Below are positions 25,185-34,524 of a DNA stretch of 57,797 nt, piece after piece. This DNA comes from Microbacteriaceae bacterium. GTDB taxonomy: Bacteria; Actinomycetota; Actinomycetes; Actinomycetales; Microbacteriaceae. The notes beneath the pieces are model-generated. The model searched no databases and had not been told where the DNA came from. It was given only the letters and a program-made list of their open reading frames with translations. Where the stretch lies: positions 1 through 57,797 of the forward strand of contig CANGDL010000010.1 of the NCBI GenBank assembly GCA_947452675.1, read 5' to 3'. Both the position numbers and the translations under genes were made by a program. Every line of letters begins with the position of its first letter. Within the stretch, counting starts at the first letter, position 1.

Positions 25185-25266
25185 GGCTAGTTACCCAAGC
25201 GGCCAAAGGGATCTGACTGTAAATCAGCCGGCTCAGCCTTCGGGGGTTCGAATCCCTCACTAGCCA
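25185..25266 (+). tRNA. tRNA-Tyr (anticodon GTA)
   Basis: A type II tRNA of 82 bases: acceptor GGCTAGT pairs with ACTAGCC (25259-25265), discriminator A; anticodon loop CTGTAAA with GTA at 25219-25221; a long variable arm; T-loop GGTTCGAATCC. CCA is not encoded. The 3' half from the anticodon loop onward is repeated at 30065-30117, showing that this gene is an integration site. The half downstream of the crossover presumably came with the element and restored the gene. Confidence 0.97.
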
Positions 25267-25268
25267 CA
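25216..25268 (+). repeat. attL: 53-bp direct repeat, copy 1 (inside tRNA-Tyr)
   Basis: The sequence from ACTGTAAATC in the anticodon arm to TAGCCACA just past the tRNA end is identical over 53 bases to 30065-30117 (offset 4,849). It is the left boundary of the inserted element, with crossover most likely in the anticodon loop. Confidence 0.92.
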
Positions 25269-25270
25269 TT

Positions 25271-25310
25271 AGAAAAGCACCCACCGATTGGTGGGTGCTT
25301 TTCTATTGCT
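25271..25310. terminator. Rho-independent terminator after tRNA-Tyr
   Basis: AGAAAAGCACCCACC and GGTGGGTGCTTTTCT form a perfect 15-bp stem (25271-25304) with a GATT loop. It belongs to the element side of the junction; the original chromosomal terminator appears to be the one at 30123-30156. Confidence 0.88.
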
Positions 25311-25401
25311 TTGTAAGCCCTAGCGCAATTGAAAAACTCGCTAGTGCCTTTTCGCCGCCTAAACAAGAGTGTGGTGAACGCGTTCAGCCGGCGATGCCTC
25401 A

Positions 25402-25863
25402 CTATTTACTTGTGGCGTTTGAAGGTAGGACCACAAATTCACCAATGATCTTCGAGCCGTCAAGATCGTAAACCTTTACAGCTGTGGCTCGATCCTTGTG
25501 CGAGGCTTGCCATTTCAGGGCATCGTTAGGTGACTTAAACGTAGCAATGGCAGATTCACCAGTCGCTTCATCGAGGTCTGACTTGTATGCGTAACCTTCT
25601 TTTCCATTAGTCGCTAGCACTTGGATGAGATCTGGCTCAGCCGAAGAACTTGGTGCATCGGCCGCCGACCCGTACGAGAGGCCCTTTGCGTTTTTTTGAT
25701 AGTTTGGTGCAGGCATAGCGGGTGCCTGTTGGCCGTCACTCGCTGCTACACCCCACGGGGCCTGGAAAATGCCGACGCCAGCAAATGCTGTTCCGGTCAC
25801 CAGCCCACCTGTTAGGGCTACCGCTGATGCGACTGTCAATGCAACTTTGTGCTTGGTTTTCAT
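25402..25863 (-). CDS. Secreted protein of unknown function (element cargo)
   Basis: 153 residues from ATG 25861-25863, which has a good AGGAG ribosome-binding site (a longer reading from 26013 overlaps the neighbour and lacks one). It has a signal peptide (KVALTVASAVALTGGLVTGTAFA), a serine/alanine/proline-rich linker, and a compact C-terminal region ending GEFVVLPSNATSK. There are no cysteines in the mature part. No family recognised. It lies 16 bases behind the other secreted gene on the same strand, so the two are one unit divergent from the HTH+TPR regulator. Confidence 0.7.
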   Translation of the reverse strand: MKTKHKVALTVASAVALTGGLVTGTAFAGVGIFQAPWGVAASDGQQAPAMPAPNYQKNAKGLSYGSAADAPSSSAEPDLIQVLATNGKEGYAYKSDLDEATGESAIATFKSPNDALKWQASHKDRATAVKVYDLDGSKIIGEFVVLPSNATSK

Positions 25864-25879
25864 GTCAACTCCTATTTGC

Positions 25880-26320
25880 TTAAGACGTCTGGTTTGGGCT
25901 ACGGAATGTGTAATACGGGGTGTAACTGCTGCCGGTCCACGAGTAGGTGACGCCGTAGCTGTTCCATGTTCCAGTTCCGGTTCGTACGGTAGGCACCGAA
26001 ATTGAGGTGGCATTCACAGATGTGTAGGAGGTTTGGCTCTCCTGGATTAGCGTGCCCGCAGCATTGAAAAGTCGACCTCGTGCTCCCATCCATCCAGCGG
26101 CAACTGACCCCGAGGTCGAATTGATCTGCGATACCGCAGAGATGTTTCCAGGTGACGTAATGATGTAGGCCTGGTTCGAGTAGTTGATGCCTGATACCGT
26201 GAAAACGCCGACTGTGCTGTACGCAGTCCCTGCAAAGGCTGGCGCTACAGCACCTACTGATGCTCCCAGCAAAGAAGTGCCAACGAGCATTAGAGCGAGT
26301 TTCTGTTTTGTAGATTTCAT
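25880..26320 (-). CDS. Small secreted protein (element cargo)
   Basis: 146 residues: a signal peptide (LALMLVGTSLLGASVGAVAP, then AFA cleavage) and a mature part of about 115 residues rich in Ser, Thr, Tyr and Gly, with GWMGARGRLFNAAGTLIQES and a C-terminal YGVTYSWTGSSYTPYYTFRS segment. It resembles small exported actinobacterial proteins of unknown role; a toxin or signal precursor is possible but unproven. The ATG has an AGGAG-like RBS upstream. It is first in the two-gene minus-strand unit facing the regulator. Confidence 0.72.
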   Translation of the reverse strand: MKSTKQKLALMLVGTSLLGASVGAVAPAFAGTAYSTVGVFTVSGINYSNQAYIITSPGNISAVSQINSTSGSVAAGWMGARGRLFNAAGTLIQESQTSYTSVNATSISVPTVRTGTGTWNSYGVTYSWTGSSYTPYYTFRSPNQTS

Positions 26321-26568
26321 GTATTTCTCCTAACTATTGGATATTGCGTTGATAAAGAGTGCGATTTAGTGGCCGCTAAGTAGCCGCGTCCTTATGTTGC
26401 TGAGCAACAGTGAATAGGCCCACTTGAAGCAGAGGGTGTCCTACCGCTTACGAGTGCAATAAAGAGATTCAGAAAAATTGACATGTTATTCACCCCCCCC
26501 CGAAAGATCTTCATGTTCAAGAGTGTGGTGCTGTTTGTAAATATTGTCAAATATTGTAAAATATAGTC
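26321..26568. promoter_or_regulatory. Divergent intergenic region with triple 10-bp repeat
   Basis: This 248-base region separates the secreted-protein unit from the regulator. AAATATTGTC, AAATATTGTA and AAATATAGTC stand head to tail at 26539-26568 and end exactly at the regulator ATG. TAAAAT at 26557-26562 is six bases before that ATG and TTTGTA at 26534-26539 is 17 bases further up, forming a possible leaderless promoter overlapped by the repeats. A run of nine C lies at 26493-26501. Confidence 0.55.
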
Positions 26569-27822
26569 ATGACAAACATGAGTCGCTTTAAGGACGCCAG
26601 GCTAAATCTTGGCCTTTCGCTTGAAGAAGTCGCGGACGGGATATGTTCGCCGAGTTTCCTATCGCTTGTTGAAAGAGGATTGAGGCAACCAAAACCGCAG
26701 CTTGTGCAGCTGCTGGAGGTCAAGTTAGCCAAGGGCTTTTCGAATGTTGCCGATCAGTTCCACCCGAGTGACGAGTACCTTCAGGCGCTTGGTTTCTTAG
26801 CGGTTGGCGACAGCGCTGCCGTGGATGCGTCGGCAGAGAATATCCTCTCCGGCCAGGAGAGAGCGCTAATCGTGGCATTGCTCAATGAACAAAAGGGCGA
26901 AGGGTCCTATGCGGCAGCACTTTTAGAGCCGATCCTGCGAAACTGCCTGATGTCTGCAAGCCAATTCTGTCTAGCCGCCCAAGCCATGGTGCGCATTTCA
27001 AGAGACTTGGGAGACCTTTATGCGGCGATCTACTGGGCGGAAAATACTCTCTCGCAGCTGGGGCAACAGTGGAATGACCAGTCGCAAACTTATGAACTGG
27101 TGGCAACGCTGTCAAGTGTCTACCTTGAAGTTGGAGACATAAATAGAGCCAAGTCGCTCATCAATAGCATCCAAGGCAAAGAAGTGAAAGATTGGGACAG
27201 GGTCACTGCGCTTTGGGCTGGGGGAATTCTTGCATTCACAACGGGCGAGATGTCAAAGGCCGGCACGATGCTTCGAGAAGCTCACTACCTTTCAATTCAC
27301 TCCGAGCGTGAACTCTCGAAAGCGAGAATTTTGCAGACAGCAATCTGGATCGAGGCTCGAACTGGTGAAGCACTAGCCAAATCGGCTTCAGATGATCTAG
27401 AGCGCCTGTCGGGCTATTTCAAGGAGAGGGGTTTGATTGAGGACCTGGCTCAAGCATTGAACACGATTGCGTTAGTTTACTCAAAATCAGGCGAACACCT
27501 ACTGGCAAGAAAAAATGCTGAGGCGTCACTCGAGCTTTTGATTGATTTACCAACTCTGAGCAAGGCCAAGCTGGGGATTTGGAATGCTGAGGTTATTTTG
27601 GCGCTAGGAGACAGAGAGCAGGCCATTGCGATTTTGCACAATACAATCCAGCTTCTAGCGGGTACACCGGCTTCGCGAGCCACTGCAACTGCGTGGGCGG
27701 AAATGGCCGAAATCTTCACGCAATTAGGCGATGACGAACGCGCGCTCGACTGCCTTCGATCGTCCGCGCAGGCAGCAGGATTGATTCAAGCCAACGCTGC
27801 AGTTAGAACACCCCAAAAATAG
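26569..27822 (+). CDS. XRE-type HTH regulator with TPR domain
   Basis: 417 residues: an N-terminal Cro/C1-type HTH (RLNLGLSLEEVADGICSPSF then LSLVERGLRQPKPQLVQLLE, residues about 8-55) followed by roughly 350 residues of helical TPR-like repeats (for example AIYWAENTLSQLG, LAQALNTIALVYSKSGEHLL, DDERALDCLRSSAQAAG). This architecture is shared with peptide-sensing RRNPP regulators (Rgg, PlcR, PrgX class). There is no SD; a -10-like box six bases upstream suggests a leaderless mRNA. It faces two secreted-protein genes and precedes the reverse transcriptase by 96 bases. Confidence 0.8.
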   Translation: MTNMSRFKDARLNLGLSLEEVADGICSPSFLSLVERGLRQPKPQLVQLLEVKLAKGFSNVADQFHPSDEYLQALGFLAVGDSAAVDASAENILSGQERALIVALLNEQKGEGSYAAALLEPILRNCLMSASQFCLAAQAMVRISRDLGDLYAAIYWAENTLSQLGQQWNDQSQTYELVATLSSVYLEVGDINRAKSLINSIQGKEVKDWDRVTALWAGGILAFTTGEMSKAGTMLREAHYLSIHSERELSKARILQTAIWIEARTGEALAKSASDDLERLSGYFKERGLIEDLAQALNTIALVYSKSGEHLLARKNAEASLELLIDLPTLSKAKLGIWNAEVILALGDREQAIAILHNTIQLLAGTPASRATATAWAEMAEIFTQLGDDERALDCLRSSAQAAGLIQANAAVRTPQK

Positions 27823-27918
27823 TGCCTTACACGTTTTTCCATTGATGACTATGGGCTGGCCAAAAACGCCATGAGATTTCGTGCATTTCCGAAAACAAAC
27901 TAAAGGGAGAGGAAGAAA

Positions 27919-29496
27919 ATGTTTGAGTCACTGGAGAATGAAGACGTTCTGGGTGAACCGCAAGAGGGAGATTACTTCGAAGCATTTGGCGTTGGAACTT
28001 GGATTGGACCCAATCTACTCCCTGAGCTGACTTCCGAAATCCTGGAACACGCGCTCTTAAGGACCCATTTCCTCCCATCGCTAAATGGAAATAACCCAGA
28101 GCTACCTTCCCTGTTTACAAGCGACTCTTTCACCCCATCAGTTTCAAGACAACTAGGCCTCCTGGAATTTCGGAATCGAAATAAAGGGACTGACTATCTA
28201 AGATTTGATCAAACCAAGCCGGATGGTTTTGCTCGACATTCGGGTATTCCGCATCCTGCTGCACATGCCAAACTTGTTTCACTCCTCGCTGATAACTGGA
28301 CTCAAATTCAACACATCACGGCGAATGATCAGAGCCCACTTCGCCCGATTCTGACTAAAAATGGACGTTTGTTTTCCTCGAGTTACGCAAACGATTCCCT
28401 CGAAAACTTAACATGGTCTGAAGTCGCCTCGACGGGAGCAGAGTTTTATGTGAGGTTGGACATAAAGTCCTTTTTTCCAAGCATCTACACTCATGCCTTT
28501 GAATGGGTGCCATTTGGAAAACCCGCTGCCAAAGGCTCAAAGAGGGAGTCCCAATTGGACGGGCATTTTGCCACGCATCTCGACAAAGCTTTGCGTTTTC
28601 AAAATTTCGGCCAAACGGTTGGTCTAGTTGTTGGCCCGGGAACTTCAAACATCGCGGCAGAGTATCTTTTGTGGCCCATCGACCAGCGACTACGTGAGGA
28701 ATTCGGTGAAAAATTCAGACGAAGGATCGACGATTACGAGTTTTATGCGCGAGACCAGTCCGAGGCAAAGAGATTCATAAAGAAACTTGAGGGGTTCTTG
28801 AGGGAATCTGAGTTGTATTTGAACCCACAGAAGACGCAGCTATTATCCCTAGCTGAACCGACGGACGTGTCCTGGAAGATAGCCTTAGCAAGTTTTAGCA
28901 CAAATTGGTTGGAAAGCCGTAGCGATTTCGCAAATTACTGGAATCAGGTCCTAATCCAATTTCAGTCAACCAAAGACCAAAGGTGTCTCAGATGGGGGAT
29001 GAAGGTAATACTAAACCGAGCGGAGAAAGCACAGCAAATTCCCTGGGTGCTGTCTCTCTTGGTGCGGCAGATTCGATCATTCCCATTTCTGGCTACTTAC
29101 CTCAGGTATGCGATTGATGAAAGTCTCGGAGAGCGAGATCTTGAGGAGCTGTACTCAATCCTGGAATGCAAACTCGAAAATCTTTACTCTGACGCAAAGG
29201 TATGGCTCATCGCAATCTTGGGCGTGAACAACAAACTGGACACCAAGATAGCGAACCTCATAATGAAGGACATGGATGCGCTTTCCCTCACTCTTCTGAA
29301 CGAGTTCAAAGTGATTTCAGAGAAGGAGCTAATCAGTCTTCTTCCAGATCCTATGTCTCATCCGCACGAAGCGGATAGATATTGGCTGCCGAGGTATCAG
29401 TCATCGCTCCGGAGTAATAAAGTGTCTGATCCAGATGGTGTTTTTGAGATTATGCAAAAGGCATCGGTCAATTTCGTCAAGCTGGAACCGTTCTAA
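27919..29496 (+). CDS. Abi/UG-group reverse transcriptase, putative antiphage gene
   Basis: 525 residues. The RT palm is clear: motif A VRLDIKSFFPSIYTH (Asp 181), a short hinge WVPFGKPAAKG, motif B-like QTVGLVVGPGTSNIAAEYLL (231-251), and the catalytic motif RIDDYEFYA with Asp 271-272; a thumb-like LNPQKTQLLSL follows. The DIxxFFPSIYTH ... FGK and IDDYE style is that of Abi and 'unknown group' (DRT) RTs, not retron or group II intron RTs. Residues about 300-525 form an all-helical C-terminal region with no domain I recognise. Normal RTs have YxDD; here Arg replaces Tyr. A GGGAGAGG ribosome-binding site precedes the ATG. Defence function is inferred from family. Confidence 0.85.
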   Translation: MFESLENEDVLGEPQEGDYFEAFGVGTWIGPNLLPELTSEILEHALLRTHFLPSLNGNNPELPSLFTSDSFTPSVSRQLGLLEFRNRNKGTDYLRFDQTKPDGFARHSGIPHPAAHAKLVSLLADNWTQIQHITANDQSPLRPILTKNGRLFSSSYANDSLENLTWSEVASTGAEFYVRLDIKSFFPSIYTHAFEWVPFGKPAAKGSKRESQLDGHFATHLDKALRFQNFGQTVGLVVGPGTSNIAAEYLLWPIDQRLREEFGEKFRRRIDDYEFYARDQSEAKRFIKKLEGFLRESELYLNPQKTQLLSLAEPTDVSWKIALASFSTNWLESRSDFANYWNQVLIQFQSTKDQRCLRWGMKVILNRAEKAQQIPWVLSLLVRQIRSFPFLATYLRYAIDESLGERDLEELYSILECKLENLYSDAKVWLIAILGVNNKLDTKIANLIMKDMDALSLTLLNEFKVISEKELISLLPDPMSHPHEADRYWLPRYQSSLRSNKVSDPDGVFEIMQKASVNFVKLEPF

Positions 29497-29507
29497 AAGG
29501 CGCCCAC

Positions 29508-29714
29508 ATGTGGCTGACAGCGCAAACCTATGAACCATCGACAAAGGAAGTTAAGATCGACACTTTGGGTGTTTGGACAGCCCTGATTGCCGGAATTGCC
29601 GCCTTTTGCAGATCTTGGCTCGCACCATTTTTCAATGATAAAGCCCTTGCCAATCAAGAGGCCAGGACTCACAAGCGAAAACTTCTCTCAGATGCACGAG
29701 AGACAATCCAATAG
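29508..29714 (+). CDS. Small putative membrane protein downstream of RT
   Basis: 68 residues with one moderate hydrophobic stretch (LGVWTALIAGIAAFCRSW) and a basic, helical C-terminus (NQEARTHKRKLLSDARETIQ). It starts 11 bases after the RT stop behind an AAGGCG segment, so co-translation with the RT is plausible. No family recognised. Confidence 0.45.
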   Translation: MWLTAQTYEPSTKEVKIDTLGVWTALIAGIAAFCRSWLAPFFNDKALANQEARTHKRKLLSDARETIQ

Positions 29715-29744
29715 TTTAATGGTTTTCATCCTAGGACCTCGTTT

Positions 29745-29930
29745 ATGAACGACGCTAGGTTTCTAGCCATCAAACCGTATCTGGAGAGGGGGTCAATCCT
29801 GGAGATTGAGACTCCGTTTCTCCCAGGTGCCCCGATAAGTGTTTATTCAAATTGCGACTGGGGTTCACCCAGTCTCGACAGATTCCGCACCTCAGTGGAC
29901 GAAATTGAAATGAAGTGGTTTAGAACGTAA
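29745..29930 (+). CDS. Hypothetical small protein (61 aa)
   Basis: A 61-codon frame on the same strand, 30 bases after the previous small ORF. There is no convincing ribosome-binding site and no recognisable domain. It may be a remnant of a longer gene or chance coding. Confidence 0.25.
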   Translation: MNDARFLAIKPYLERGSILEIETPFLPGAPISVYSNCDWGSPSLDRFRTSVDEIEMKWFRT

Positions 29931-29996
29931 CGGAAATATTCCGTTTAGATTCCGTTCAATGGACGGAAACAGACGGAAACGGGCAAGTCCGTAAAC
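29929..29996. repeat. Cluster of ACGGAA/TTCCGT hexamers near attR
   Basis: Five exact copies in 49 bases: ACGGAA at 29930, TTCCGT at 29939, TTCCGT at 29950, ACGGAA at 29963 and ACGGAA at 29973, plus a degenerate GTCCGTAAAC at 29987. The first two form the palindrome AACGGAA-ATA-TTCCGTT; the last two exact copies are a direct repeat with 10-bp period. The position beside the attachment site fits recombinase arm sites or a protein-binding array. Confidence 0.6.
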
Positions 29997-30064
29997 AGTG
30001 GCTTGACTAATAAAATGCTGGGGTACATTGCCGTTTTGGTCTCATTCGGACCGATCGCCACATA
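29997..30064. other. Non-coding end of element before attR
   Basis: No gene is visible. TTGACT (30003-30008) and TACATT (30024-30029) resemble promoter boxes but are only 15 bases apart; if used, transcription would run through the tRNA fragment into the terminator at 30123. Confidence 0.35.
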
Positions 30065-30117
30065 ACTGTAAATCAGCCGGCTCAGCCTTCGGGGGTTCGA
30101 ATCCCTCACTAGCCACA
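30065..30117 (+). repeat. attR: 53-bp direct repeat, copy 2 (tRNA-Tyr 3' fragment)
   Basis: Identical to 25216-25268. It contains the anticodon loop from ACTGTA, the variable arm, T-arm and 3' acceptor strand of tRNA-Tyr but has no 5' half, so it is not a functional tRNA. It is the displaced original end of the gene, with its own terminator downstream. Confidence 0.92.
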
Positions 30118-30122
30118 CCTGA

Positions 30123-30156
30123 GACCCACAAGTAGCGATACTTGTGGGTCTTTTTT
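30123..30156 (+). terminator. Rho-independent terminator
   Basis: GACCCACAAGTA and TACTTGTGGGTC form a perfect 12-bp stem with loop GCGA, followed by six T. Probably the original terminator of the tRNA-Tyr gene before the insertion. Confidence 0.88.
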
Positions 30157-30174: not shown

Positions 30175-30720
30175 ATGACCTCGGCCCTTCTCGTAATCGA
30201 TATTCAGAACGACTATTTTCCAGGCGGGAAAATGGAGCTTGTTGGCAGCCCGGAAGCCGCGAGAAATGCGTCGCGGATTCAGCGGAAATTTCGCGAGGCG
30301 GGCCTGCCTGTCATCCATGTTCAGCACATTGCCCTTAGCCCTAGTGCGACCTTCTTCTTGCCCGACACGTATGGCGCGGAAATCAATGAGACCGTCTATC
30401 CACTTGGAGACGAGCCCGTCGTCGTGAAGCACTTTCCAAATGCCTTCCGTGAGACCAAGCTTCAAGGGATCCTTACGCAGCACGCGGTCACCGAGTTAAC
30501 CGTCGTCGGAATGATGACTCACATGTGCATCGACACAACCGTGCGCGCGGCGCACGATGCCGGCCTTGACGTCACACTAGTTGGCGACGCTTGCGCGACT
30601 AAAGATCTTGCCTTTGACGGTGCGATGGCGGATGCCGCCAGTGTTCAGATCGCATACCTGGCGGCAATCGACGGATCATTTGCAACCGTGATTTCAACCT
30701 CGGCGATGGTCGGCGAATAG
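30175..30720 (+). CDS. Isochorismatase-like cysteine hydrolase
   Basis: 181 residues with the catalytic triad of the isochorismatase/nicotinamidase superfamily: Asp in LVIDIQNDYF, Lys in VVKHFPNAF and Cys in GMMTHMCIDTTVRAA. Such enzymes hydrolyse small amides or vinyl ethers; the substrate is unknown. TAGACT at 30163-30168 is six bases before the ATG (leaderless). It is convergent with the GH16 operon, with the short palindrome GAGGCAATTGCCTC between. Confidence 0.88.
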   Translation: MTSALLVIDIQNDYFPGGKMELVGSPEAARNASRIQRKFREAGLPVIHVQHIALSPSATFFLPDTYGAEINETVYPLGDEPVVVKHFPNAFRETKLQGILTQHAVTELTVVGMMTHMCIDTTVRAAHDAGLDVTLVGDACATKDLAFDGAMADAASVQIAYLAAIDGSFATVISTSAMVGE

Positions 30721-30737: not shown

Positions 30738-32633
30738 TTAGTTGACGCCAACTGCGCCAGCGCCATTCAGCTGGTAGTAGCGCACGTAGTCGATTTTCAT
30801 TTCTAAGCTCGACCATCCGTCGTAACTGTCGCTGAAGCCGCCGGTTGGACTTATCGCGTTGTTGAGAATTACAAAGAATGGGTGATTGAAGGTCCAGGCG
30901 CCTGGTTGGTCAAGCGTCGTGTTGGTTCGCTCAAGAATCTTATTTCCATCAACATAGAGAGCTATGTAGTTCTCAAGCCAATAGATCGAATATGTGTGAA
31001 AAGCACCGGGGGAGACCGCCATGCTGCCCGATGCATAGGCATCGCTGCCCCCGTTTGACCAGTGTATGGCGCCCGAGATCAGGCTGGCTGAGTGGCCCTC
31101 CATGGCGTCAATTTCGCCAGAAGTCGGCCAACCTACCGAAGTGATGTCTGTGCCAAGCATCCAGAATGCCGGCCAGTTCGCGCCGCCACTCGGGTTCTGA
31201 ATTCGAGCTTCGATCACTCCATACTCGAACGAGACCTTGCCCTGAGTGTCTAATCGTCCACTGGTGAATGAACACGAGCCAGACCACGAGAGGCAGCCGG
31301 AGCCCGTTGCTGGTGTCTCCAGATGTGTGGAGGTGATGACGGCGTTGCCACTGCCGTCCAGCGAGTTTGCCGCCGGCGTATAAACCTGCTGCTCGTTGTT
31401 ATAGCAAGTGCCACCACCGTTTGCTGCCGATTGCCCACAACTTCTGGAAGTCCACTTGCTCGAGTCGATAGAGCCGGCCGAACCATTGAACTCATCCGAC
31501 CAAAGCATCGCGCCTCGCGTGTATGTCGCCTGGGCTGGCGGGTTAGACGAAGCGCTATCTGGCTGAAAAAGCACATTGTCAACATAGATTGTCAGTGCTC
31601 CGGTGCTTGAACCGAACCCATAAAAAATCACTGCTTTTCGATAACCAATTGATGTTGAATATGCGGGAGTTCCAGCCCGGAGGTTTGCGAAGTTGAAAGA
31701 CATGGTTTGCCAGCCGCTCGAACTTGTGGTGGAAATTGTTTCGATTGAGTTTGCCGCATTTGCCGGATCCTCCAGTTTCAACAGGACAGGTTGATTGGCT
31801 GCTGTTGCATAGATCTCAAGGCTGACAATTTTTGAGTTCGCTGTCACGAGGGTTTGAGAGCCGGTGTAGAAAACCGATCCGGCGCCACCGGCGCTTGCGT
31901 CACGACTGATTTTCAACGAGTTTAGTGAGCCAGTCGGGCTGGCCGAGGGCGAGGTCGCCAGGGATGGGTTGTCTCCACCAAAGCCGATCAGAGTTAGGTC
32001 GCTCGAGGCAGCTTCAAAAGTTACTTGGACCCGACTGTTGGACGATTGTGCTGACCCGCTCGATTGGCTTGGCGACGAAGAAGGGGTTGGAGATGGGGCT
32101 GGATTCGAAACCGTGCCACCTGAGGGCGAAGAAGATGCTGACGGGGTTGGCGATTTGGTTGGAGATGCCGAAGGCAAAACTGATGGGGTTGGTGACGAGG
32201 AAGGAGCCCCAGTAGCCTGCGGGATTGGCTGCGGGTTGCTGACTTTCGGCAAAGTTGAAACCGACTTGCAACTGATCGAATTAATCGAGGCTTTTCCTAG
32301 GCAAAGATTTGCGCCCTTGCCTCCATCGAGAACATCTGTTCCGCCCCCACCGAAAAGCCAGTCGTTTCCATCACCCCCATAAATTCGGTCATTTCCGGCA
32401 CCCCCATCGATCACGTCGTTTCCGCCGAGGCCGTAAATGACATCGTTTCCGCCGAGCCCACAAATCACATCAGCCTTTTCGGTGCCCTTCAGAACATCAG
32501 CCTTTTCGGTGCCGGTTATGGTGCAGTTCTGCCCGGTCATCGCTTTGCGAGTTGCTGCGAGTGTCGATGTGGTGCCTAAGCTGAGCAGGGCGAGAGCCAC
32601 TGCGCCAAGCACCCAGGCTTTTGCTACTGTCAT
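30738..32633 (-). CDS. Secreted multidomain GH16 endo-beta-1,3-glucanase with RTX-like repeats
   Basis: 631 residues in order: signal peptide (1-27); RTX calcium-binding repeats of the GGNDVIxGLGGND type (about 48-105); a Ser/Pro-rich linker (about 130-205); a beta-rich region (about 206-360) resembling carbohydrate-binding modules, ending IYVDNVLFQ; and a C-terminal GH16 domain (from ATYTRGAMLWSDEFNGS) with catalytic GEIDAMEG, the ExDxxE pattern of laminarinase-type enzymes. RTX repeats on a Sec-type glucanase are unusual. It is the last of three tandem GH16 genes, overlapping the previous stop by four bases. Confidence 0.9.
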   Translation of the reverse strand: MTVAKAWVLGAVALALLSLGTTSTLAATRKAMTGQNCTITGTEKADVLKGTEKADVICGLGGNDVIYGLGGNDVIDGGAGNDRIYGGDGNDWLFGGGGTDVLDGGKGANLCLGKASINSISCKSVSTLPKVSNPQPIPQATGAPSSSPTPSVLPSASPTKSPTPSASSSPSGGTVSNPAPSPTPSSSPSQSSGSAQSSNSRVQVTFEAASSDLTLIGFGGDNPSLATSPSASPTGSLNSLKISRDASAGGAGSVFYTGSQTLVTANSKIVSLEIYATAANQPVLLKLEDPANAANSIETISTTSSSGWQTMSFNFANLRAGTPAYSTSIGYRKAVIFYGFGSSTGALTIYVDNVLFQPDSASSNPPAQATYTRGAMLWSDEFNGSAGSIDSSKWTSRSCGQSAANGGGTCYNNEQQVYTPAANSLDGSGNAVITSTHLETPATGSGCLSWSGSCSFTSGRLDTQGKVSFEYGVIEARIQNPSGGANWPAFWMLGTDITSVGWPTSGEIDAMEGHSASLISGAIHWSNGGSDAYASGSMAVSPGAFHTYSIYWLENYIALYVDGNKILERTNTTLDQPGAWTFNHPFFVILNNAISPTGGFSDSYDGWSSLEMKIDYVRYYQLNGAGAVGVN

Positions 32634-33487
32634 TTCGTGGTGACTTTTCCAACCCCGTTTATTGAGTAGTAGCGAATGTAGTCAATCTTCATCTCGGCTT
32701 TATCAATCGAGGTGTCCAGCAGACCGCCGTCAAAGTCCCCGCCCATAGCGACATTAAGAATCATGAAAAAGTCTTGGTTAAAGACATATGTATTTGGTTT
32801 GACCATTGCTGGAGTCAAGGTATGAAACACCTTGCCATCGAGATACCAGGTGATCTTGTTTGCGGCCCAGTCGATTGCATAGGTGTGGAAGCCGTCTGCG
32901 AGCGAGGTCGGCGACACAATCACATTGGTTTTGCCGTTTGCCCCTGAGTAGCCGGGGCCGTGGGCGGTTGCAATGTCTCGGTTCGGCTCCCGTCCGCGAA
33001 GTTCAACCACGTCAATTTCGCCGGAGGTTGGCCAGCTCTTTGCAACAATATTGCTTCCCAAGAGCCAAAATGCCGGCCATACTCCGCCACCTGATGGCAT
33101 CTGAATGCGAGCCTCAAGACGGCCATACTTGAACCGAATCTTGCCCTGAGTGTTAATGCGACCGCTGTAATACTGGCAGTCACCGAAGCAGTTATAAGGG
33201 AGATCTCCGTCTTGGACCGGTGGAATTTTGGTCGCCGAAATCACCAGCTGGCCAGTTCCGTTTGTCTTAACCGCATCCTCGGTGTACCACTGCATCTCCT
33301 TATTTCCCCAACCGCCACCGCCGAGGTCATACTTGAAGAATTTTGGGTTTGGCGAAGTGCCGGCTGGTTCGTTGAACTCTTGCGACCAGAGCAATTTCTT
33401 AACTGCGGTGGCAGCCGTGACCGGTTGGGCGAGAGTGAGCACGAGGCCAGCCATCAGGCCAGCGGCGACAAAGTTGCGAATTCGCAT
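32630..33487 (-). CDS. Secreted GH16 endo-beta-1,3-glucanase (single domain)
   Basis: 285 residues: a signal peptide (AAGLMAGLVLTLAQPVTAATA) and one GH16 domain with WSQEFNEPAGT, the active site GEIDVVELRG (ExDxxE nucleophile and acid/base pair) and the YIRYYSINGVGKV tail. It would cleave internal bonds of beta-1,3-glucans outside the cell. It starts one base after the stop of the next upstream GH16 gene, so the three form one operon. The family fits laminarinase; strict substrate not shown. Confidence 0.93.
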   Translation of the reverse strand: MRIRNFVAAGLMAGLVLTLAQPVTAATAVKKLLWSQEFNEPAGTSPNPKFFKYDLGGGGWGNKEMQWYTEDAVKTNGTGQLVISATKIPPVQDGDLPYNCFGDCQYYSGRINTQGKIRFKYGRLEARIQMPSGGGVWPAFWLLGSNIVAKSWPTSGEIDVVELRGREPNRDIATAHGPGYSGANGKTNVIVSPTSLADGFHTYAIDWAANKITWYLDGKVFHTLTPAMVKPNTYVFNQDFFMILNVAMGGDFDGGLLDTSIDKAEMKIDYIRYYSINGVGKVTTK

Positions 33488-33488
33488 T

Positions 33489-34385
33489 TTAGTAACGGGT
33501 TACCTTTCCAACTCCATCAATCGAGTAGTAACGTACCCAGTCAATTGACATGGCTCCAGACTTTAGATCGGGATCTACTTCGCCTGTGAATTGGCCACCC
33601 ACAGCGAGGTTCATGATGAGATAAAACTCCTTATTGAACACCCAGTCGTTTGCGCCGACATCCTTCTTGTTTAGGGTGAAGTAAACGTTGTCGTTGAGCA
33701 ACCATTTGATCTGGTCCGCTTTCCACTCAATTGCATAGGTATTGAAGCCGCTGTAGTTGAAGGTCTTCATCGCGGTCAGCCCACCGATTGCTTCGCCGCC
33801 CGAATAGCCTGGACCGTGGGCAGTGCCCCACGCAGTCTTTGGGCTGGCTCCCTTGGCCTCGATAATGTCGATTTCACCGCAGGCTGGCCAGGAATTGGTT
33901 TTTATGTCAGAGCCAAGCATCCAGAATGCAGGCCACATTCCAACGCCCTTCGGCATCTTTATTCTGGCTTCCATTCGCCCATACTGGAAACCCACTTTGC
34001 CGAGCGTAGTGACCTTTCCGCTGGTCCACTCGCATGCCGTTCCGTAATAGCAAAGGTAAGGGTTGTCTTTCGAAATCTGACCGCCAGCCGGAACTTTCAT
34101 GCGTTTAGCGGTGATGACCGCCGAACCTTTGCCATCCTGTTTGATCGCTTCTTTGATGTAGTACTCGCGCTCTGAGTTCCCCCATCCAGGGATTCCGGCT
34201 TCGGTTCCATCGCCAATGTCGAAGTTCCAGTTCGCACTAGACACGGATGCGCCAGCCTTTGAATTGAACTCTTCAGACCAAAGCAATGTTTTTTTGGTCG
34301 CGGCCGATGTTTCGGTCATGTGCACTCCTAGTGTCAGAATCGCGCTGATCGCGAGTGTGGCGCCTACGTACTTTGAAAACTTCAT
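33489..34385 (-). CDS. Secreted GH16 endo-beta-1,3-glucanase (first of operon)
   Basis: 298 residues from MKFSKYVG (ATG 34383-34385), giving a normal signal peptide (GATLAISAILTLGVHM); an upstream ATG at 34430 would add 15 residues before it. The GH16 domain has LLWSEEFNSKAG, GEIDIIEAKG (ExDxxE) and the same YYSIDGVGKV end as its neighbour, showing recent duplication. It is the first gene of the minus-strand GH16 operon and is divergent from the ABC sugar importer, with two LacI-type operators between them. Confidence 0.92.
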   Translation of the reverse strand: MKFSKYVGATLAISAILTLGVHMTETSAATKKTLLWSEEFNSKAGASVSSANWNFDIGDGTEAGIPGWGNSEREYYIKEAIKQDGKGSAVITAKRMKVPAGGQISKDNPYLCYYGTACEWTSGKVTTLGKVGFQYGRMEARIKMPKGVGMWPAFWMLGSDIKTNSWPACGEIDIIEAKGASPKTAWGTAHGPGYSGGEAIGGLTAMKTFNYSGFNTYAIEWKADQIKWLLNDNVYFTLNKKDVGANDWVFNKEFYLIMNLAVGGQFTGEVDPDLKSGAMSIDWVRYYSIDGVGKVTRY

Positions 34386-34524
34386 CGGGCTCACTCGCCG
34401 ATCCTTGAGAACTTGGGTGGTTTTGCGCACACGAAACCAGGGGAATTGAATCTGATTTCAACCCTATTCCTCTAAAGCCGGCGAGCCAATAAATAGTCTG
34501 AGAATCCTGTAACAAACAAATAAC

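Follow-up and report, generated by a model that had tools for sequence, protein, structure and literature searches.

We describe a small islet inserted at a tRNA-Tyr gene of a Microbacteriaceae bacterium (assembly GCA_947452675.1, contig CANGDL010000010.1), within a stretch of 57,797 nt that we refer to as the window. With a probability of roughly 0.8 in our estimation, this islet (25269-30064) is a non-autonomous member of a family of elements, here called the R family, which was seated at tRNA-Tyr by an R-type tyrosine integrase and resembles a cis-mobilizable element (CIME) or an additive-island cassette. It has an insertion footprint, some relatives have the site empty, its right end is homologous to a module otherwise met at tRNA-Arg, and it has neither an integrase nor the left arm of the complete R elements. 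The related genomes compared are given G-numbers, G000 being the window's own genome, in which the islet lies on contig C10.

The intact target gene, tRNA-Tyr(GTA), lies at 25185-25267 (ARAGORN; Rfam tRNA, 52.5 bits), and like all features of the site given here it is on the + strand. A repeat search showed that nucleotides 32-84 of this gene are present as a direct repeat at 25216-25268 and 30065-30117, with 53/53 nt identical, a start-to-start spacing of 4,849 and 4,796 bp between the copies. The first copy is the attL core, whose first base lies in the anticodon loop (ACTGTAAATC), and the second is the attR core, a displaced tRNA-Tyr 3′ half. A terminator-like hairpin of 16 pairs stands immediately 3′ of the tRNA (25270-25305), another is found where the native tRNA terminator would be (30121-30152), and the first native gene past the site is nicotinamidase/isochorismatase-like (30175-30720; named by eye). 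When up to three mismatches were allowed, the 53-mer had at least one copy in 55 of 67 genomes of the genus and two copies in five, and the reversed pattern had no match in the same 67 genomes, which argues that the repeat is not due to chance. The GC content of the islet is 49.1% against 53.7% for the whole window, and GC at third codon positions was 0.43, 0.54 and 0.50 in three islet open reading frames (ORFs), the only ones long enough and the first taken in an over-long form, compared to 0.596 (sd 0.038) for 46 flank ORFs. An earlier sequence-only reading of this DNA had described a perfect 53-bp tRNA-Tyr 3′-half repeat bracketing the islet and had taken it for the footprint of a tyrosine recombinase; both statements hold, the latter since integrase-bearing elements elsewhere have repeats from the same tRNA-Tyr loop.

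To place the insertion among relatives, 40 tRNA-Tyr stretches from 37 related genomes were examined. Major facilitator superfamily (MFS), YajQ and LacI genes lie upstream in 26 of the 40, and the downstream side is variable. Two stretches, those of G059 and G038, have the window's right neighbour, the nicotinamidase-like gene, directly after tRNA-Tyr, and the window flanks joined across the islet align unbroken to G059 (70.1%, 4,986 columns) and G038 (72.2%, 2,595 columns). The empty site that the same reading had suggested looking for is thus present, and the islet is not fixed in all relatives.

The evidence that ties the islet to a family is the R attachment module at its right end, 127 bp in length (29938-30064, + strand), with TTCCGT/ACGGAA iterons resembling arm-type sites, GGCTTGACTAATAAAAT..GGGGTACATTGCC and a ..ACATA junction. 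The order is iterons, GGCTTGACYAATAAAAT, GGGGTACATTGCC, ..ACATA and then the tRNA 3′ half beginning at the anticodon loop or, in brief, TTCCGT iterons, TTGACTAATAAAAT and a junction within that loop. Five TTCCGT/ACGGAA copies lie within 100 bp near the right end of the islet, and five of any hexamer were seen in 0 of 200 base shuffles; the iterons are putative integrase arm sites. The iteron pattern was found at nine places in 5 of 67 genomes, a count that includes the window and in which the near-palindrome registers most ends twice, and the reversed control gave six scattered single matches. Genus-wide, the arm pattern gave 12 matches in 9 of 67 genomes as opposed to none for its reverse: at right ends in G000, G001, G002, G006, G049, G050 and G058, at the left ends of three integrase-bearing elements, and once in a 1.2-kb tRNA-Tyr islet of G019 that has the left arm only. 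A match in G026 with two mismatches and not near a known end was treated as chance.

Searches with the window's end sequence (E<1e-7) matched 8 of the 67 genus genomes (G000, G001, G002, G006, G032, G049, G050 and G058), and in the seven other than its own the module abuts a tRNA-Arg 3′ half. The G002 version of the module as query recovered it in at least four genomes of another genus (G350, G269, G313 and G159); this search matched 373 of 398 genomes, those listed nearly all through the tRNA-Arg tail, so that only matches reaching into the module were counted, and as two candidates were scored per genome the module counts are lower bounds. The module is also present in one named metagenome-assembled genome (MAG) contig, and a strict pattern returned five records, all Microbacteriaceae or Micrococcales, from a collection of 84,980 species that may leave out near records of the window's genome. 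Among viral contigs, a 30-nt core pattern and the R module pattern each had 0 matches. In an alignment of thirteen ends, 12 of them (G050a left out) agree at 61 of 127 columns and all 13 agree at 41. The ten bases preceding the module differ in every case except for a stretch common to G050 and G058, meaning that its inner edge is sharp. Apart from the window, the tRNA half is Arg(ACG) in all 12 ends, with the loop changed or shortened in G006 and G050a. The modules of G001 and G350, which belong to different genera and carry different genes, are identical at 126 of 127 bases, and the window's module is 90% identical to that of G002 over the first 94 bp, 71-81% to the others over 127 bp and 57% to G050a.

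In three R elements (G002, G049 and G058) the side next to the tRNA holds a tyrosine integrase together with a left arm, ATTCCGTTTAGATTCCGTT, located 48, 82 and 48 bp after the tRNA, respectively; G050a was not counted as complete, being without the module iterons and having its tRNA side off the contig. The right module without integrase and left arm was found in eight islands from two genera: that of the window, G001 (7.4 kb), G006 (10.4 kb), G050b (6.4 kb), G313 (7.2 kb), G269 (3.8 kb), G350 (14.5 kb, with a transposase-like ORF named by eye) and G159a (3.0 kb). For G350, G269, G313 and G159a, integrase absence refers to a hidden Markov model (HMM) of six sequences run on ORFs of at least 90 aa and not to PF00589, and G159b (the second match in G159) and L227, both with the module but with the tRNA beyond the stretch read, as well as G032 (contig too short) were left out of the count. 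Judged by eye from first residues only, the cargo of the other integrase-less islands includes fatty-acid, haem, ATP-binding cassette (ABC)/two-component and metal genes. The left end of G001 (L146 reversed, 2545-2700) has a 32-nt tRNA-Pro 5′ half, cut at its anticodon loop, and a complete tRNA-Pro lies beyond the right end of that island. Other left ends of integrase-less islands (L206, L207 reversed, and L209) have a post-tRNA terminator resembling the native right flank, as if tRNA-adjacent chromosomal DNA had been captured. In the window's islet the R right module abuts the tRNA 3′ half and the left arm ATTCCGTTTAGATTCCGTT is absent, and the target is tRNA-Tyr, unlike the usual tRNA-Arg(ACG) of the family.

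The lack of an integrase was examined by several routes. A Pfam scan of the six islet ORFs found no recombinase, PF00589 had four matches in the window's genome and none on contig C10, and 119 six-frame segments of the islet searched with an HMM of six integrases gave no remnant (best E 1.1); no integration or transfer gene was seen by any of these three scans. Using blastp, the proteins of 19 mobile-element loci matched only the regulator described below (and its antisense frames), the reverse transcriptase (RT) and a stretch of a secreted protein, and we took further short matches, at E 1.6e-4 or worse, as chance. On the six-frame search and blastp we rejected a decayed integrase inside the islet. 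The sequence-only reading had listed no integrase and had named a sensitive profile search beforehand as a possible refutation, which found none; its view that the islet uses another element's integrase or has lost its own also gains ground, since the R family matching the right end has its own integrase in G002, G049 and G058. The description as satellite-like found no support, as Pfam and PHROGs detected neither a primase nor a packaging or capsid gene in the islet, so that of the overall proposal the footprint, the missing integrase, the empty sites and a source family with its own integrase are supported and the likeness to a satellite is not. The window genome's own tRNA-Arg integrase is 22-24% identical to R-type integrases, and the R arm pattern occurs in that genome at the islet only. 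This integrase gene, unrelated to the R-type ones, lies on contig C2 (L081, about 50.9 kb) at tRNA-Arg(ACG), the site of the R family, with no R arm pattern.

We propose that an R-type tyrosine integrase, now absent, joined the circular form of the element to tRNA-Tyr by strand exchange in the anticodon loop, whereby the incoming 3′ half would restore the tRNA and the old 3′ half would be displaced to 30065. Such an integrase would bind the stem arms and exchange strands in the loop, and an altered loop would retarget the element. The two tRNA genes have the same stems and a different loop at this place (TCTGACT-ACG-GATCAG in tRNA-Arg(ACG) and TCTGACT-GTA-AATCAG in tRNA-Tyr), and with this common frame, TCTGACT-NNN-[A/G]ATCAG, one integrase family could use both tRNAs. 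A step from tRNA-Arg to tRNA-Tyr is suggested by one right-ended case at tRNA-Tyr and by the left arm in G019, and one attachment module on two tRNA genes with a common anticodon stem would be a route for retargeting. Having neither integrase nor left arm, the islet cannot move by itself, and it would depend on the integrase of another element, in trans or by CIME-like accretion, or else be fixed; any present mobility is likewise conjectural.

How the islet came to be without its left part can be read in two ways, and a stretch common to G050 and G058 bears on both. The G050b island is 99.9% identical to a stretch in G058 over 6,410 columns (5 mismatches, 1 gap), both ending at the core, while the two chromosomes are about 68% identical in the MFS-YajQ-LacI region compared. 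The G050 copy is enclosed by two cores and follows an integrase-bearing part, and the G058 copy is without an inner att, in the same island as another integrase that is 43% identical to that of G050, which means the integrase partner has changed. Going by this near-identity, there has been a recent transfer of an R-ended stretch which in one of the two genomes has no integrase. The first reading makes the islet a strict CIME: an R-type element, complete on entering tRNA-Tyr, would have lost its left part (integrase, left arm and replication genes) in situ and would now be immobile. Integrase and left arm are on the same, tRNA-adjacent side in G002, G049 and G058 and missing together elsewhere, deletions do occur as seen from the left-arm-only islet of G019 and the missing inner att of G058, and the window's module is more diverged than most; we give this decay somewhat less than even odds, as both parts are missing in eight islands of two genera with different cargo, the islet has no integrase remnant, and these together with the recent transfer of a stretch that is integrase-less in G050 exceed what private decay predicts.

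Alternatively, the integrase-less R-ended segments could be a working class of one-ended cassettes, moved in trans by R-type integrases, singly or in tandem. Eight integrase-less islands against three integrase-bearing, two-armed ones among those found are consistent with this, as are the sharp inner edge of the module with unrelated cargo up to that edge, the near-identical modules across genera, the tandem arrangement in G050 and the nearly identical stretch in two species. The cassettes do not have the left arm of the complete elements, however, and the left ends of G313, G269, G159a and G001 resemble the native tRNA-Arg flank, so chromosomal recombination could give the same result; we hold the cassette reading tentatively and would sooner bet against it than for it.

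Several observations weigh against an R-type integrase having seated the islet or against its movement in trans. The window has the only R right module at tRNA-Tyr, and the G019 islet at tRNA-Tyr is a left arm without a right one. The window's module is on average the most diverged except for G050a, with the last 36 bp hardly alike, and the displaced tRNA-Arg copies of G006 and G050a carry loop mutations. The window's genome, which is 85% complete, yielded no R-type integrase. With the right module as the query, right-ended islands are favoured, the count is biased and left-only derivatives are under-counted. In G058 the stretch sits in an integrase-bearing island and may have travelled within a larger element and not alone, and G050 and G058 are apparently MAGs from one pond, where an assembly or binning error may be shared. 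A lambda-like integrase may be unable to excise an element that has no left arm, and the islet, which lacks this arm, can be read as a deletion derivative just as well as an element moved in trans.

The tRNA-Tyr gene is also used by other elements, and ones with the same kind of att repeat and an integrase, which the sequence-only reading had advised searching for, do exist in other genomes. G023 and G019 have integrase-bearing elements of 14-15 kb at tRNA-Tyr with restriction-modification genes (and Prim-Pol, shown for G023) and repeats of 22-23 nt, and elsewhere in the family, elements of 12-15 kb with an integrase are found in G431, G406 and G191, their repeats extending into the anticodon loop. 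The repeat of G431 is exact over 53 nt from the same first base as in the window, that of G406 is 51 nt, and that of G191 is exact over 35 nt (with mismatches), which makes the window's repeat a normal footprint of a tyrosine integrase cutting in the anticodon loop. The anticodon loop and the T loop are reportedly the places that integrases favour, as Williams is said to have described in 2002. Islets at tRNA-Tyr are also found in G026, G020 and G046, with a second one in G019, and seventeen further stretches, many of them short, had no second copy that reached 17 nt. G049 and G041 have short intervals between tRNA-Tyr 3′-end copies, about 156-171 bp core to core. Fragments of the tRNA-Tyr 3′ end, oriented as analysed, lie at L040:8631-8825 (G049), L065:7337-7364 (G041) and L036:1831-1853 (G020). 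In G019 (L084:132-16533) the integrase-bearing element is followed by the 1.2-kb islet with the R-type left arm between two tRNA-Tyr fragments, an arrangement that is, by analogy, accretion as described for CIMEs. We rejected attC-like hairpins before the fragments of G049 (two), G041 and G020, the z values being −1.55, 0.11, −2.49 and 1.51 and no Rfam family matching.

Such elements are real at the site, and a tRNA-Tyr-specific integrase of the G431/G406/G023/G019 kind could have inserted the islet, with the R module a mere passenger. Each of the four elements (ends in L083, L084, L127 and L128) has one pair of TGTGC sites at 122-123 and 134-135 nt from the right core, on its inner side, and another pair 59-98 nt inward of the left core, which are probably arm sites; their integrases form two pairs, 58% and 76% identical within and 24-26% between. 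In the window's islet the right side has no TGTGC and the left side a single one, at 228 nt, and with this conserved arm pair absent we rejected the four integrases as movers of the islet. G431 has the same first base in its repeat as the window, and a fifth element, G191, is also without a TGTGC pair, meaning other integrase types use the site, but the R module abuts the core just as at tRNA-Arg, and we regard a tRNA-Tyr-specific integrase as unlikely. Homologous recombination between tRNA-Tyr copies or flanks, with no integrase involved, would find a parallel in G065 (L032:1549-5691), where a 4.0-kb island with a regulator of the islet's type, DUF3800 and Amidase_6 lies between two complete tRNA-Tyr genes; the repeat there is 124 nt including the upstream region, which is not the usual integrase footprint and resembles a duplication. 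The window's repeat, by contrast, starts exactly in the anticodon loop and adjoins a conserved module, making such recombination very improbable here.

Among known systems, CIMEs and microCIMEs, as far as the available passages of PMC5704250 and PMC7563491 describe them, are alike in keeping att cores, having lost recombination genes, accreting in tandem at one target and having a cargo class of 1.2-13 kb, and the short gene-free intervals of G049 and G041 are similar to microCIMEs of 130-220 bp. These passages define CIMEs as decayed integrative and conjugative or integrative and mobilizable elements; the islet keeps the attL and attR cores and has R-type relatives with an integrase, no conjugation gene was seen in it, its left arm is lost, and the R family differs by a conserved right module common to two tRNA genes. 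Small variable cassettes that sit at tRNA genes and are recognizable by a duplicated piece of the tRNA, as here, are described for the additive islands of Ca. Actinomarinales (PMC7771536) and Ca. Methylopumilus (PMC10872708), where the passages available name neither an integrase source nor a shared terminal module, both of which are found here. Tycheposons are tRNA-flanked elements with a tyrosine recombinase in the part of PMC10872708 that covers them, whereas the islet has no recombinase, and it differs from a phage-inducible chromosomal island-like phage satellite in having no integrase, replication primase or packaging genes by Pfam, HMM and PHROGs scans. Integron cassettes and clusters of attC sites lacking integrases, going by excerpts of PMC11389934, are alike in having cargo plus a one-sided site, an integrase elsewhere and tandem arrays; they differ from the present case, with its arm module plus tRNA 3′ half, anticodon-loop target and element-type tyrosine integrase (Phage_integrase). 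It is possible, though we consider it doubtful, that aquatic Microbacteriaceae have an integron-like, tRNA-based cassette system in which arbitrary cargo plus the 127-bp one-ended module and a tRNA 3′ half would be inserted and stacked at anticodon loops, the tyrosine integrase coming from a small number of R elements, resident or visiting, and hopping from tRNA-Arg to tRNA-Tyr by loop exchange. We found no account of the R module or of such Microbacteriaceae cassettes among the top-ranked results of searches in open-licence literature, which omits most subscription journals; the islet is real and integrase-less, and its right end places it in a family for which those searches gave no account. 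Small tRNA-adjacent cassettes are already known from streamlined aquatic genomes, with no mover named in the passages at hand (PMC10872708, PMC7771536), and as the conserved terminal module ties one such cassette to integrase-bearing elements, the question of movement becomes directly testable.

The islet's contents given in the sequence-only reading, an RT, a helix-turn-helix (HTH) and tetratricopeptide repeat (TPR) regulator and secreted proteins, were all confirmed (Pfam and PADLOC, with the signal peptides of both secreted proteins judged by eye), though calling the islet a mobile defence cassette is an interpretation. The RT (27919-29496, + strand, 525 aa) has an RVT_1 domain (Pfam) and is DRT4/UG15-like, its best PADLOC model being Drt4 at 327.5 bits over residues 38-522, nearly the full length. 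Its residues 42-521 can be aligned with UG15 chains of known structure (PDB 21ou and others, E 2.7e-50), and D181, D271 and D272 are invariant with two relatives and aligned to the PDB chains. It is probably a single-gene DRT4-like defence RT, the function in defence being surmised from this likeness, and would make a defence RT the cargo of a cassette. DRT4, according to the available part of PMC13213688, is reported to make template-independent random single-stranded DNA (ssDNA) that is toxic once a phage protein protects ssDNA; the islet's RT is likewise a single gene, aligned to UG15 chains, with the catalytic D and DD kept, and it differs in scoring below the NCBIfam Drt4 equivalog cut-off (311.9 vs 450 bits) and in being known here from sequence alone.

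Within a sample of 299 genomes of the family, the nearest relative of the RT is in G244 (34-35%) and adjoins a tyrosine integrase, and a relative in G321 has a primase-like ORF (so judged by eye) some kb away. No relative of the RT was found in the genome contigs collection, and phages and plasmids gave only distant RTs of less than 60% identity. RVT_1 is present in 2 of the 67 genus genomes, the second, G049, having another RT at another place (L131:844-2409, 521 aa), which is retron-like by eye and beside a pilin-like gene.

The HTH_3 plus TPR_12 regulator (26569-27822, + strand, 417 aa, Pfam) is divergent from the secreted-protein genes. Its closest relatives are both at tRNA-Tyr, in G049 (77%) and G065 (34%), with more distant ones elsewhere in five genomes; in the family sample it occurs in 7 of 299 genomes, all except the window's own being distant or weak, and viral contigs held no relative. 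From this distribution at tRNA-Tyr, the module of regulator and secreted proteins has probably occupied the site for longer than the RT. A recent transfer of the regulator between G000 and G049 was rejected, as the identity at fourfold sites (0.49) is within the range of five other genes (0.29-0.53). The secreted proteins, of no assigned family, are encoded on the − strand at 25402-25869 (ORF listed up to 26013, start placed by eye) and 25880-26320 (sub-threshold matches only), and the former has a homologous stretch in the G049 island (47% over 38 aa). Downstream of the RT are two small ORFs on the + strand, 68 aa (29508-29714, no family above threshold) and 61 aa (29745-29930, no family), for which Pfam, PADLOC and PHROGs returned nothing and NCBIfam, run on the 68-aa ORF alone, returned one sub-threshold match. 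Past the site, the window has three adjacent secreted GH16-like (by eye) paralogues at 30738-34430, which are also kept in G059 beside the empty site.

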